A DNA stretch of 64,000 nt from positions 333,480-397,479 of the forward strand of contig NZ_JAANNP010000001.1 in NCBI RefSeq assembly GCF_011250635.1, given 5' to 3'. This DNA comes from Motilibacter deserti (GTDB taxonomy: Bacteria > Actinomycetota > Actinomycetes > Motilibacterales > Motilibacteraceae). Positions within the stretch are counted from its first letter, which is position 1; the number at the start of each line of letters is the position of its first letter. The position numbers and the translations under genes are program-made. Positions 53,069 to 62,388 of this stretch are shown here, one piece after another. The notes beneath the pieces were generated by a model. It was not told the DNA's origin. It was given only the letters and a program-made list of their open reading frames with translations, and did not search any database.

Positions 53069-54511
53069 TTGGCAGCTGAGATCACCGCACTAGCAGGCCC
53101 CGTCACAGGCCTTCCGCTTGAGAAGGGTTTGCGCCGCAACGCGATATCGGCGTTCGGAAGCGCGGTGATCGGCCTCGCGTCGACCGCGCCCGCGTACAGC
53201 CTCGCAGTGACCGTGGGGCTGCTCGCGGACGAGGCCGGCGGCCACGCTGCCGGCATCATGCTGCTGGCCGTGGCGCCCATGCTGCTCGTGGCGCTCGCCT
53301 ACCGAGAGCTCAACGCCCACGAGCCCGACGCGGGGACGACGTTCGCCTGGGTGGCGCGCGCCTTCGGCCCGCGCACCGGCTGGCTCGGCGGCTGGGCCGT
53401 GGTCGTGTCGTCCCTGTTCGTGATGGCGAGCCTCGCCCAGGTCGCCGCGCAGTACCTCTTCCTCCTCGTCGGCGCCGACGGGCTGGCCGACTCGCGCGGC
53501 GCCCAGCTCGTCGCCGGGCTGGTCTGGATCGGCCTGCTGACGTGGCTGTGCAGCCGCGGCATCACGACGACCGCGGCGACGCAGACCGCCCTGCTGCTGA
53601 TCGAGCTCGTGCTGCTCCTCGTCTTCACCGTGAAGGCGCTTTGGGAGGTCGTGGTCGTCGGGCACCAGGGGTCGACCACGCCGGAAGCCTCCTGGCTGGA
53701 CCCGTTCGGCGCCGGCATGAGCGCCACCTGGACCGGCCTGCTGCTCGCCGTCTTCCTCTACTGGGGCTGGGACAGCAGCTTCTCGGTCAACGAGGAGACC
53801 GCCGCCCCGCGCCGCGGGCCGGCCATCGCCGCGCTCGCGGCGATCGGCGTCCTGGTCGTCGTGCTCGTCGGGTCGACGGTCGCCGTCATCGCCTGGGGTG
53901 GCGTCGAGCGCACGGCGGCCCTCGGCGACGAGGACGTGCTCGCGGCCTTCGCCCAGGAGGTCCTCGGCGGGCAAGGCGGAAATCTGCTGCTGCTGTGCGT
54001 GCTGTCCAGTGCTGTCGCGGGGACCCAGACCACGATCGTCCCGATGGTGCGCACCGTGCTGTCCATGGGCGCCCACGGCGCGATGCCCGCGCCGCTCGCC
54101 CGCGTCGAGAAGGACAGCGGCTCGCCCGCGCTCGCCACCTGGGTGATCGGGGCGGTCTCGGCGGCGCTCTTCGTCGCCTTCCTGATGTCGAGCGAGAACG
54201 CGCTCGCGGACTCCGTCGAGGCCACCGCGCTGGGCATCTGCGCCTACTACGGGCTCACCTGCGCCGCTGTCCCGGCCTATTTCCGCGGCCACCTGTCCGG
54301 CCGCCGGAACATCGTCTTCCGGCTGATCGTGCCGATCGCCGGCTCGGCCTGGATGGTCGCGCTGCTGATCGGGTCGGTCAGCTCGCTCCTCGGCGGCGAG
54401 TCGAAGGTCTTCGGCATCGCGACGCCTGTGCTCTTCGCGGCGGCCGCGTTGCTCGCCGGGCTGGTCCTCATGGCCACGCAGCGGCGAGGGGCCTACTTCA
54501 CAAGCCGGTGA
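53069..54511 (+). CDS. APC-superfamily amino-acid permease
   Basis: A 480-residue transporter with about 12 membrane helices. The first helix holds the unwound substrate motif STAPAYSLAVTVG; ELNAHEPDAGTTFAWVARAFGPRTGWLGGW is the classic APC loop after helix 2. The TTG start at 53069 is fixed by GGAGGA (53058-53063), 5 nt upstream. Its stop overlaps the convergent F420 reductase by 14 nt. The substrate is likely an amino acid or amine. Confidence 0.88.
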   Translation: MAAEITALAGPVTGLPLEKGLRRNAISAFGSAVIGLASTAPAYSLAVTVGLLADEAGGHAAGIMLLAVAPMLLVALAYRELNAHEPDAGTTFAWVARAFGPRTGWLGGWAVVVSSLFVMASLAQVAAQYLFLLVGADGLADSRGAQLVAGLVWIGLLTWLCSRGITTTAATQTALLLIELVLLLVFTVKALWEVVVVGHQGSTTPEASWLDPFGAGMSATWTGLLLAVFLYWGWDSSFSVNEETAAPRRGPAIAALAAIGVLVVVLVGSTVAVIAWGGVERTAALGDEDVLAAFAQEVLGGQGGNLLLLCVLSSAVAGTQTTIVPMVRTVLSMGAHGAMPAPLARVEKDSGSPALATWVIGAVSAALFVAFLMSSENALADSVEATALGICAYYGLTCAAVPAYFRGHLSGRRNIVFRLIVPIAGSAWMVALLIGSVSSLLGGESKVFGIATPVLFAAAALLAGLVLMATQRRGAYFTSR

Positions 54512-55181
54512 CCCGGATGCCGGCGTGCGCCCGGTGGCGGCGGTTCACCGAGATGAGGTTGGCGGTCAGCGCCTCCACCTGGCCCGAGGAACGCAGCCGT
54601 CCGGCATAGATGCCGCGTACGCCCGGCAGCCGGGAGGCGAGCGCCTGCACGGTGTCCGTCGCCTCCCGGTCGTCGCCGACGACCATCACGTCGAGCTCGA
54701 GGCTCTGCACCTCGGGGTCGAGCAGCACGACCGCCGACACGTGATGGAACGCCCCGACCACCCGGCTGCCGGGCAGCAGCTGCTGCGCCTGCAAGCAGGC
54801 GCTGCCCTCCGGCACGGGCAGCGCGAACGCTCCCCGCTCGTCGAAGCCGAGCGGGTTCACGCAGTCGATCACCACCTTGCCGTCGAGGGCCTCGCGGCAC
54901 TCCTCGAGGAGTGCCGCGTGCCCTTCCCATGGCACTGCGACGAGCACGACGTCCGCCGACCGAGCGCACTCGATGTTGTCCAGCCCGCGCACCTTCTCCT
55001 TGTCCCCCAAGGGAAGCGTGTCGACGGCAGCCACGGCGCGCTCGCGGTCGCGGGAGCCGAGCAGCACCTGTTGCCCCGCCGCTGCGAACCTCGCTGCGAG
55101 GCCGCGACCGAGGTCGCCGGTCCCTCCCAGCACTCCGAGGACGGCACCGCTCACATCGGGAAGCTCGAAAGACTTCGGCAT
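54498..55181 (-). CDS. npdG: NADPH:F420 oxidoreductase
   Basis: A 227-residue F420-dependent NADP reductase. GVLGGTGDLGRGLAARFAAAG binds NADP, GSRDRERAV its phosphate; VLVAVPWEGHAALLEECREALDGKVVIDCVNPL and GAFHHVSAVVLLDP form the F420 side. It links NADPH with the F420 pool used by enzymes such as the LLM protein at 25259-26191. ATG 55181 is the only good start. Confidence 0.9.
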   Translation of the reverse strand: MPKSFELPDVSGAVLGVLGGTGDLGRGLAARFAAAGQQVLLGSRDRERAVAAVDTLPLGDKEKVRGLDNIECARSADVVLVAVPWEGHAALLEECREALDGKVVIDCVNPLGFDERGAFALPVPEGSACLQAQQLLPGSRVVGAFHHVSAVVLLDPEVQSLELDVMVVGDDREATDTVQALASRLPGVRGIYAGRLRSSGQVEALTANLISVNRRHRAHAGIRVTGL

Positions 55182-55505
55182 GGGTCGATCGTCCCACCCG
55201 CGCACGCCGAGGCCGTCATCGCCGTCGAGGCTCGGGCCTGCGCGGGCCGAGCCCTCGACGAGCACGATCTCGGACGGACGTCGTCAACGCTGATGCGACG
55301 AATCGACGGACTCGACGACCAAAGTCCGCTTCAGGTACGGCTCATGCCAATCACAGGCGCCTGACGCAGACGTGATGACCGTCGGCACGACGACGACTTC
55401 GGGCATCGATGTTGGCAAGTTGAGCGCTGAAGTGCGATCTTTGCGGGTAAAGGTGCGTCCGGGCCCGCCGGGCGGTCCGCCAAACGCGAAGCTCAGGAGG
55501 CACTC

Positions 55506-56498
55506 GTGCCAGCAACGTTCGTTCTCAAGAAGGACCGAGCAGGCAGGTTCAAGTTCGAGGTCGTCAACCGCAACAAGGTCATCGCGTCCTCGACCAACAC
55601 CTACAGCGTGAAGACCCTCGCGCAGAACGCCATCCGCGCGATCGCCCCGGACGCGAGCATCGACGACCAGACGCTGGTGGCGCGCAAGACCGCCGCGGGC
55701 GGTGTCTCCGGCGCCAAGAAGGCCGCCTCCGCCGTCGCGAAGAAGACGGCTGCGACCGCCAAGAAGACCGCGGCCACCACTGCGAAGAAGACCGCTGAGA
55801 CCGCGAAGAAGGCCGCTGCCGGCGCGAAGAAGGCGGCGCCGGCGGCGACCAAGAAGGCGCCTGCCGCTCCGCGCGGCGTCGCGGCGCGAGCGACGACGCG
55901 CGCCACCGGCGTGCGGTCCGCCACTCCGCGGACCACGAAGGCCGCCCCCGCGAAGGCGGCCGCCACCAAGACCACGGCGACCAAGACCACGGCGACCAAG
56001 ACCACGGCGACCAAGACCGCCGCCACGAAGGCTCCGGCCACCAAGACGGCAGCCAGCAGGACGACGGCCACCAAGACGGCCAAGGCGGCGCCGGCGAAGG
56101 CCACCGCGACGAAGGCTGCGGCCACCCGGGCGACCACGAAGAGCACTGCGGCGAAGAACACTGCTGCGAAGAGCACAGCGGCGAAGTCCGCTGCCGCAAA
56201 GCCGGCGGCGCGGGCGGCGACGACCCGGCCGGCCGGTCGCAGCGCGGGCGCCGAGGCGCCTGCCGCGGCGCGCAAGGCCGCCACGACGCGTACCCGCGCC
56301 GCCTCCAGCGCCAGCGCCCGCGGCACCACGTCCACCGGCCCGGCGAAGCGCCCGGCGAAGCAGGCCGCACCGGACGACACGGCGCCCGCATCGACCCCGG
56401 CGCCCGTGGCCGCGCCCGAGGAAGCCACTCCCGCTCCCGCTCCCGTCGCGGCGTCGCCCGCCCCGACGGCTCCGGAGCAGACGACCTCCGAGTCCTGA
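55506..56498 (+). CDS. YegP/DUF1508-like domain fused to a histone-H1-like Lys/Ala-rich tail
   Basis: A 330-residue protein. Residues 1-60 resemble the UPF0339/YegP domain (FVLKKDRAGRFKFEVVNRNKVIASS). From residue 70 it turns into Ala/Lys/Thr repeats (AKKTAATAKKTAATTAKK, then ATKTTATKTT units) like bacterial H1-like proteins and the tails of actinobacterial HU. The last 60 residues are acidic and Pro/Ala-rich. DNA or RNA binding by the basic tail is likely. GTG 55506 has AGGAGG 6 nt upstream. Confidence 0.85.
   Translation: MPATFVLKKDRAGRFKFEVVNRNKVIASSTNTYSVKTLAQNAIRAIAPDASIDDQTLVARKTAAGGVSGAKKAASAVAKKTAATAKKTAATTAKKTAETAKKAAAGAKKAAPAATKKAPAAPRGVAARATTRATGVRSATPRTTKAAPAKAAATKTTATKTTATKTTATKTAATKAPATKTAASRTTATKTAKAAPAKATATKAAATRATTKSTAAKNTAAKSTAAKSAAAKPAARAATTRPAGRSAGAEAPAAARKAATTRTRAASSASARGTTSTGPAKRPAKQAAPDDTAPASTPAPVAAPEEATPAPAPVAASPAPTAPEQTTSES
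55965..56018 (+). repeat. 15-bp tandem repeat coding TKTTA units
   Basis: Three perfect copies of ACCAAGACCACGGCG (55965-55979, 55980-55994, 55995-56009) plus part of a fourth. They lie inside the H1-like tail and could expand or contract by slippage without a frame change. Confidence 0.9.
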
Positions 56499-56513
56499 GC
56501 CGTCGCCCGACGG

Positions 56514-56547
56514 CTCCGGCCCCGTCACTGGTGTGACGGGGCCGGAG
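56514..56547. terminator. Strong bidirectional hairpin
   Basis: A perfect 15-bp stem (56514-56528 with 56533-56547, loop TGGT) between the H1-like gene and the convergent 58-residue gene. A second hairpin, AGCCGTCG/CGACGGCT, lies just before it and partly overlaps. Confidence 0.88.
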
Positions 56548-56556
56548 GCCGGACGG

Positions 56557-56733
56557 TCAGTCGTCGTTCCAGCGCGGGTCGTTGTCCCACGCCTCGGTCC
56601 GCTCCGCCGCGCTCGCAAGCGCGTTCTCCGCCTCCTGCCGGGTGGCGTACGGGCCCATGCGCTCGGAACCCGGGCAGACCTGCTCGGTCTCGACGCTCTG
56701 GTGACGCAGGCAGTACCAGTACTCGGCGGCCAT
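56557..56733 (-). CDS. 58-residue conserved small protein
   Basis: A small protein with [18 protein letters not shown] (Cys/His residues that might bind metal) and [24 protein letters not shown], which resembles a shortened SPOR-like fold. It is found beside map in other actinomycetes as far as I recall. Function unknown. Confidence 0.75.
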
Positions 56734-56788: not shown

Positions 56789-57652
56789 GTGACAGTGCTC
56801 GTCCCGGGGACCGTCTCCCCGCTGCGCAACGTCCCCACTCGCATCCCGCGTCCGGAGTACGTCGGCAAGCCCCGCCCGTCGCGCTACACCGGCCCTCATG
56901 TGATGGACCCGGAGACGGTGGAGCGCATCCGCCGCGCCGGGCGCATCGCCGCCGACGCGATGGCAGAGGCCGCGCGCCACATCCGGCCGGGCATCACGAC
57001 CGACGAGCTCGACCGGATCGGCCACGAATACCTCGTGGCGCACGACGCCTACCCCTCGACGCTGGGCTACCGCGGCTTCCCGAAGTCGATGTGCACATCG
57101 CTCAACGAGGTCATCTGCCACGGCATCCCGGACTCGACAGTGCTGCAGGACGGCGACATCATCAACATCGACGTCACGGCGTACGTCGACGGCGTGCACG
57201 GCGACACGGACGCGACCTACCTCGTGGGCGACGTGGACGAGGAGTCCCGGCTCCTCGTCGAGCGGACGCGGGAGGCGTTGAACCGCGCGATCAAGGCGGT
57301 CCGGCCCGGGCGCGAGGTCAACGTCATCGGCCGCGTCATCGAGTCCTACGCCAAGCGCTTCGGCTACGGAGTCGTCCGCGACTTCACCGGCCACGGGGTA
57401 GGGCCCGTGTTCCACTCCGGGCTGATCATCCCCCACTACGACGACCCGTCGGCGACCACCGTGATGGAGCCGGGGATGACGTTCACGATCGAGCCCATGC
57501 TCACCCTCGGGACGATCGAGTGGGAGATGTGGGACGACGGGTGGACGGTCGTGACGCGGGACCGGAAGCGCACTGCGCAGTTCGAGCACACGCTCGTCGT
57601 CACCGAGGACGGGGCGGACGTCCTGACGCTGGACAGCAGCGCCGCCGGCTGA
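56789..57652 (+). CDS. map: Methionine aminopeptidase type I
   Basis: A 287-residue MetAP with an N-terminal extension rich in Pro ([14 protein letters not shown]) as in actinobacterial MetAP1c. Metal ligands: Asp in [18 protein letters not shown], His in [11 protein letters not shown], Glu in TIEPML and Glu in [11 protein letters not shown] 56789 follows TAGACT (56776-56781) by 7 nt, so probably leaderless. A terminator follows. Confidence 0.96.
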
Positions 57653-61996: not shown

Positions 61997-62388
61997 GGTG
62001 GACGAGCCGGCCTGTAAGCCGGATTCTGTCCCGCCGCCGGAGCGACGGGGGCGGCCATCCATCTAGGACCGCCGTTGCCGGCGGCCTCGTGCGGCCTACC
62101 CGGAAGCTCGGGCGGGCCGCCCTCCCCAGCTGACGCTGTGCGCTTCCTGTCTGGCCTTGCTCCGGGCGGGGTTTGCCGAGCCGCTCGGGTCACCCCGAAC
62201 GCTGGTGGTCTCTTACACCACCGTTTCACCCTTACCGGCGCTCGAAGCTCCGGCGGTCTGTTTTCTGTGGCACTTTCCCGCGGGTCGCCCCGGGTGGGTG
62301 TTGCCCACCGCCCTGCCCTGTGGAGTCCGGACTTTCCTCGGCGGGGCCCCGGAGGGACCCGTCGCGACCGCCCGGCCGGCTCGTCCGC
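61997..62388 (-). ncRNA. rnpB: RNase P RNA (class A)
   Basis: The catalytic RNA that trims tRNA 5' ends. On the minus strand the conserved core is clear: GAGGAAAGTCCGGACTCCAC near the 5' end (P4 strand, CR-I), AGTGCCACAGAAA, GGTAAGGGTGAAA (CR-II/III), and near the 3' end GACAGAATCCGGCTTACAG (CR-V). P1 is formed by a perfect 13-bp pairing of 62386-62374 with 62012-62000. Exact ends are within a few nt. About 390 nt, usual for actinomycetes. Confidence 0.95.

Follow-up and report, generated by a model that had tools for sequence, protein, structure and literature searches.

In Motilibacter deserti we find a gene in which a divergent relative of the DUF1508/UPF0339 (YegP) domain is joined to a histone-H1-like tail and an acidic, Pro-rich end (Table 1). 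We see the same kind of head with a Lys/Ala tail in about 15 further genomes, in several of which the gene has the same chromosomal place, and we therefore regard the fusion as a real architecture. It seems reasonably probable to us that the product is a YegP-family protein tethered to nucleic acid and acting under stress. DUF1508/YegP proteins are widespread, occurring in E. coli, in archaea and in many phyla, and we know of no biochemical function for any of them. Positions are those of the window, by which we mean the whole 64,000-nucleotide stretch of DNA that was analysed.

The open reading frame considered in the first-pass annotation holds up as a coding gene; its start, its stop, its ribosome-binding site and its GC content at third codon positions (0.92 in the domain and 0.91 in the tail, typical of a coding frame) all fit. 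We take the long ORFs in the other reading frames and on the opposite strand to be, most likely, shadows cast by the high-GC repeats. The hairpin beyond the stop codon resembles a terminator but lacks a T run, and it lies between two convergent genes. Because npdG is divergent upstream and a convergent 58-aa gene, for which a longer 103-aa ORF is probably over-extended, separates the fusion gene from map, the fusion gene probably has a promoter of its own and forms a transcription unit by itself.

Table 1. Features of the fusion gene and its surroundings in the window, with the genomes carrying the same fusion
Feature	Position	Strand	Basis or remark
Whole gene: DUF1508-like domain, H1-like tail and acidic Pro-rich end	55506..56498	+	330 aa, computed pI 11.6; GTG start, TGA stop at 56496-56498, read from sequence
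DUF1508/UPF0339 (YegP-like) domain, residues 1-57	55506..55676	+	predicted beta-beta-beta-alpha-beta; profile, AlphaFold2, fold matches
Lys/Ala/Thr-rich tail, residues 61-285	55686..56360	+	composition, tandem repeats, charge-hydropathy
Acidic Pro/Ala-rich C-terminal end, residues 286-330	56361..56495	+	net -6; kept in sister species G003
Ribosome-binding site CAGGAGG	55494..55500	+	5 bases 5' of GTG start; read directly
GC-rich hairpin, 14 bp, 3' of stop codon	56515..56546	+	56499-56565 folds at -48.5 kcal/mol, z -4.7
npdG, NADPH-dependent F420 reductase, divergent neighbour	54498..55187	-	TIGR01915 223.5 bits; longest ORF to 55265
58-aa conserved protein between fusion gene and map, convergent	56557..56733	-	relatives in L113, L114
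map, type I methionine aminopeptidase, downstream neighbour	56789..57652	+	TIGR00500 303 bits; synteny
Fusion carriers, G set			G003, G014, G024, G025, G031, G037, G054 (a Frankiaceae MAG; L033 has the same sequence, one genome in the count), G060
Fusion carriers, L set			L037, L041, L043, L051, L055, L058 (Acidimicrobiales/Acidimicrobiia and Actinomycetes MAGs, an unplaced actinomycetota MAG and two Kineosporia)
Fusion carrier G749			another class of the phylum; MPATFVLQ... head, KKSAKKSAAKK tail

Curated models score the head too low for assignment. PF07411 gives it 11.4 bits against a Pfam cut-off of 22, and the HVO_2922 model NF041908 gives 18.6 bits against a cut-off of 90, so that residues 1-57 are a divergent DUF1508/UPF0339 relative and not a catalogued member of the family. 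A profile of 24 actinobacterial DUF1508 domains, from which the window was left out, scores the head at 49.5 bits, compared with at most 18.7 bits for about 20,000 shuffled sequences. The head also matches fusion relatives at one-genome E-values of 1e-8 to 1e-7, and the fusion relatives L004, L005 and L007 receive 64-75 bits from PF07411. With the head as query, phmmer returned four UPF0339 proteins from the PDB at E about 1-2, and the sole protein type returned by tblastn against plasmid records was a Leptospira 'YegP family protein' (E=1e-6). An AlphaFold2 model of the head, built with an alignment of relatives, has a mean pLDDT of 81, and its best fold matches are the solved structures of HVO_2922, YegP, NMB1088 and SO3888; in VIA, YegP is the top match (Z 8.2, rmsd 1.9 over 58 residues; the next has Z 5.8), and the first four Foldseek matches are all YegP-family structures (E 0.01-0.05). 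The first-pass annotation had likened the N-terminus to UPF0339 and proposed a structure prediction as a check; the relation is upheld by profile, by fold and by homologues. Compared with the family, the head has a shortened helix-to-strand loop, and its branch in the tree, about 2.3 changes per site, marks it as fast-evolving. Between the window and the sister species G003 it is nearly identical (dN 0.025, dS 0.39), showing that the domain is under purifying selection. A Pfam match to pP_pnuc_1 over residues 19-90 (17 bits, under its cut-off) was set aside as compositional. HIV RT connection domains and ribosomal proteins also came up in the structural comparisons, with middling Z or E, and were put down to common topology.

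What follows the head is, as had been suggested, a long, cationic tail of histone-H1 type. It consists of 38% Ala, 22% Thr, 16% Lys and 7% Arg, with a net charge of +48 over 225 residues, only 2% order-promoting residues, and 5 residues as the commonest spacing of Lys/Arg; its DNA is made of degenerate tandem repeats with units of 15, 21, 30, 45 and 75 bases. The acidic Pro-rich end was likewise recognised correctly, with 24% Pro and neither Lys nor Arg, and was observed in the genus of the window only. By charge and hydropathy, both segments fall on the disordered side of the boundary. The window genome has two HU genes, both away from the fusion gene. One of them, L032 (G000:C234:422559-422825, + strand), encodes an HU protein with an Ala/Thr/Lys tail of about 159 residues, whose composition (40% Ala, 20% Thr, 16% Lys and 6% Arg) is close to that of the fusion tail; the open frame that holds the other, L031, has 133 residues, which leaves no room for a tail of this kind. 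The fusion protein has no match to PF00216 in Pfam and does not count as an HU/HupB protein. When its own genome was searched with the fusion tail as query, only the query itself was returned and the HU tail was not recovered; as a low-complexity search of this kind misses even that tail, tails are compared here by composition.

The first-pass annotation knew of no such tail on this domain, a statement overtaken by the homologue search it had proposed: 15 genomes besides that of the window (16 with it) encode the DUF1508 head with a Lys/Ala tail. Most are Actinomycetes; others are Acidimicrobiia, and a single one belongs to another class. The relatives come mostly from environmental genomes. 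A scan of genome contigs with alignment A2, which holds closer relatives, recovered relatives; a scan of the contigs with the window domain alone gave no matches. Most other DUF1508 proteins sampled are single-domain proteins of about 60 aa or tandem ones of about 110-123 aa, without such a tail. In a tree of 61 columns, in which the window branch is very long, tailed and tailless proteins are strongly clustered, and at least two changes between the two states are needed. In the literature searched, by titles, abstracts and passages, we found no description of a basic tail on DUF1508, UPF0339, HVO_2922 or YegP proteins; the fusion is recurrent in public genomes and, within that literature, undescribed. 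Extensions of other kinds were also seen: L019 (G282, minus strand near 1674) joins DUF1508 to a short Cys-rich extension (GFGACTLCSCKGYNPS...), likewise an undescribed addition to this domain, and L040 (from 3992), from Acidimicrobiia, to a mostly non-basic extension of 227 residues (K+R 10%).

Gene order in the window is glnE-glnA-nadE-panB-permease-npdG-fusion-58aa-map, and parts of the order glnE-glnA-nadE-panB-npdG-fusion-map flank the fusion gene in five families, the genus of the window included. Shared flanks were seen in G003, G024 (58aa, map), G031 (panB, map), G025 (glnA, nadE, panB, npdG) and G060 (panB). In several families map lies downstream of the fusion gene; at all tailless DUF1508 loci examined, with flanks of differing length, a close map neighbour is absent. 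The copies in Frankiaceae, Kineosporia and G749 are at other places. Conservation of the locus in five families points to a gene that is old and has been passed on vertically within part of the Actinomycetes. Other genera of the window's own family have no detectable copy, from which it follows that the gene is dispensable; in these sister genera it has been lost or has become unrecognisable. The window further holds a DNA/RNA non-specific endonuclease gene (PF01223, 58731-59648, + strand) near the fusion gene, kept in G003, and a bacterial class A RNase P RNA (61999-62383, - strand, 286 bits).

Our consideration of function leans on published tails and on the regulation of yegP. AlgP and PhaF have tails that bind DNA and place granules on the nucleoid (PMC9239181). 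HbhA needs its tail to bind DNA, and the tail alone suffices for this; that of HupB serves DNA binding as well (PMC10665949). In E. coli O157, yegP depends on RpoS (PMC2907692); it forms a hub among the genes that go up under many kinds of stress, where it is listed under DNA repair (PMC9501238), and in 57 cases it is encoded after a DNA-damage-responsive capK/capS pair (PMC13373217). Taken together with the tail described here, the best reading would be a nucleoid-associated or nucleic-acid-tethered stress protein. Since other, unrelated heads are tethered to DNA by H1-like tails that bind it, the most likely arrangement would be a dimeric head tethered to DNA by two tails. The 57-residue head would fold as one DUF1508 unit and probably form a dimer or a strand-swapped dimer. 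Solved relatives contain several chains per entry (two in 6q2z and 2k7i, eight in 3bid), in line with multimers, and the structural match to tandem YegP places model residues 1-60 on YegP residues 17-129, one unit spanning both repeats, which would be in keeping with an exchange of strands and, where the protein has a single domain, with dimerisation. Each subunit would then contribute a cationic, disordered tail, about 225 residues long, which might bind DNA (or RNA) without sequence specificity through its regularly spaced Lys/Arg, and the two tails of a dimer could coat or bridge nucleic acid. A possible role of the acidic Pro-rich end would be to temper the binding by the tail or to interact with other proteins. 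A role in stress or stationary phase is suggested by YegP expression in E. coli. We infer the dimerisation, the DNA or RNA binding and the role in stress or nucleoid compaction alike, and the presence of the same head and tail in 16 genomes, with a locus shared by five families, argues for a selected function. More tentatively, the fusion might represent an Actinomycetota family of nucleoid-associated proteins with a DUF1508 core, in which the dimeric head and its two H1-like tails would bridge and protect DNA under stress.

The main rival to this proposal, which we consider rather unlikely, is that the tail binds RNA, ribosomes or polyphosphate and not the chromosome, in which case the product would be a stress protein associated with RNA or with granules. 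Disordered polycationic tails have no specificity for DNA, and cationic tails can bind RNA, polyphosphate or membranes too. AlgP, similarly tailed, localises to polyphosphate granules (PMC9239181). However, the close compositional twin of the tail in the same genome sits on HU, a DNA-binding protein. It appears improbable that the tail is a nearly neutral growth of GC-rich codon repeats with little function and that only the head matters, even though tail length ranges from about 28 to about 270 residues among the relatives, the tail DNA is repetitive, and between the window and G003 the tail (dN 0.21, dS 0.90) outpaces the head. Its dN/dS is still about 0.23, and, as sequence drifts and repeats are gained or lost between the two species, composition and charge are kept; moreover, this head repeatedly bears a tail rich in Lys, Arg and Ala in different families, and most sampled DUF1508 relatives are without one. 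We give very little credence to a surface adhesin resembling HbhA, whose tail, rich in Lys, Ala and Pro, first became known as a binder of sulfated glycoconjugates (PMC10665949). By inspection, the N-terminus of the fusion has no signal-like hydrophobic stretch, the head is a small domain that elsewhere forms stand-alone or tandem proteins, and, as noted, the relatives are mostly environmental.

Returning to the proposed nucleic-acid-tethered stress protein, we note that the existence of a lineage in which DUF1508/YegP is fixed to a tail of H1 type suggests nucleic acid as the place where this domain works. If a nucleoid family with a DUF1508 core is indeed present, it would provide the first biochemical handle on this widespread domain. 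DUF1508 would also be an added head type beside HU, phasin, AlgP and HbhA among the unrelated bacterial carriers of H1-like tails.

Among known systems, YegP, HVO_2922, NMB1088 and SO3888 (PF07411) have the head fold in common with the fusion, with clear profile similarity, but they are single- or tandem-domain proteins without a long basic tail, whereas the fusion head is divergent, with its shortened loop and a score under the Pfam cut-off. The actinobacterial HU proteins HupB, HupS and Hlp, with their Lys/Ala tails, nearly equal the fusion in tail composition and charge density and carry an HU head in place of DUF1508. The nearest functional models are AlgP and PhaF of Pseudomonas and HbhA of M. 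tuberculosis, each with an unrelated small head and an H1-like disordered tail (PMC9239181, PMC10665949); their heads are helical and their repeats KPAA or AKKA, in contrast to the beta-beta-beta-alpha-beta head, the ATK/AKK/TAK repeats and the acidic Pro-rich end of the fusion. The DUF1508 proteins with Lys/Ala tails of other Actinomycetota (Frankiaceae, Kineosporia and Acidimicrobiia) share the architecture of the window protein.
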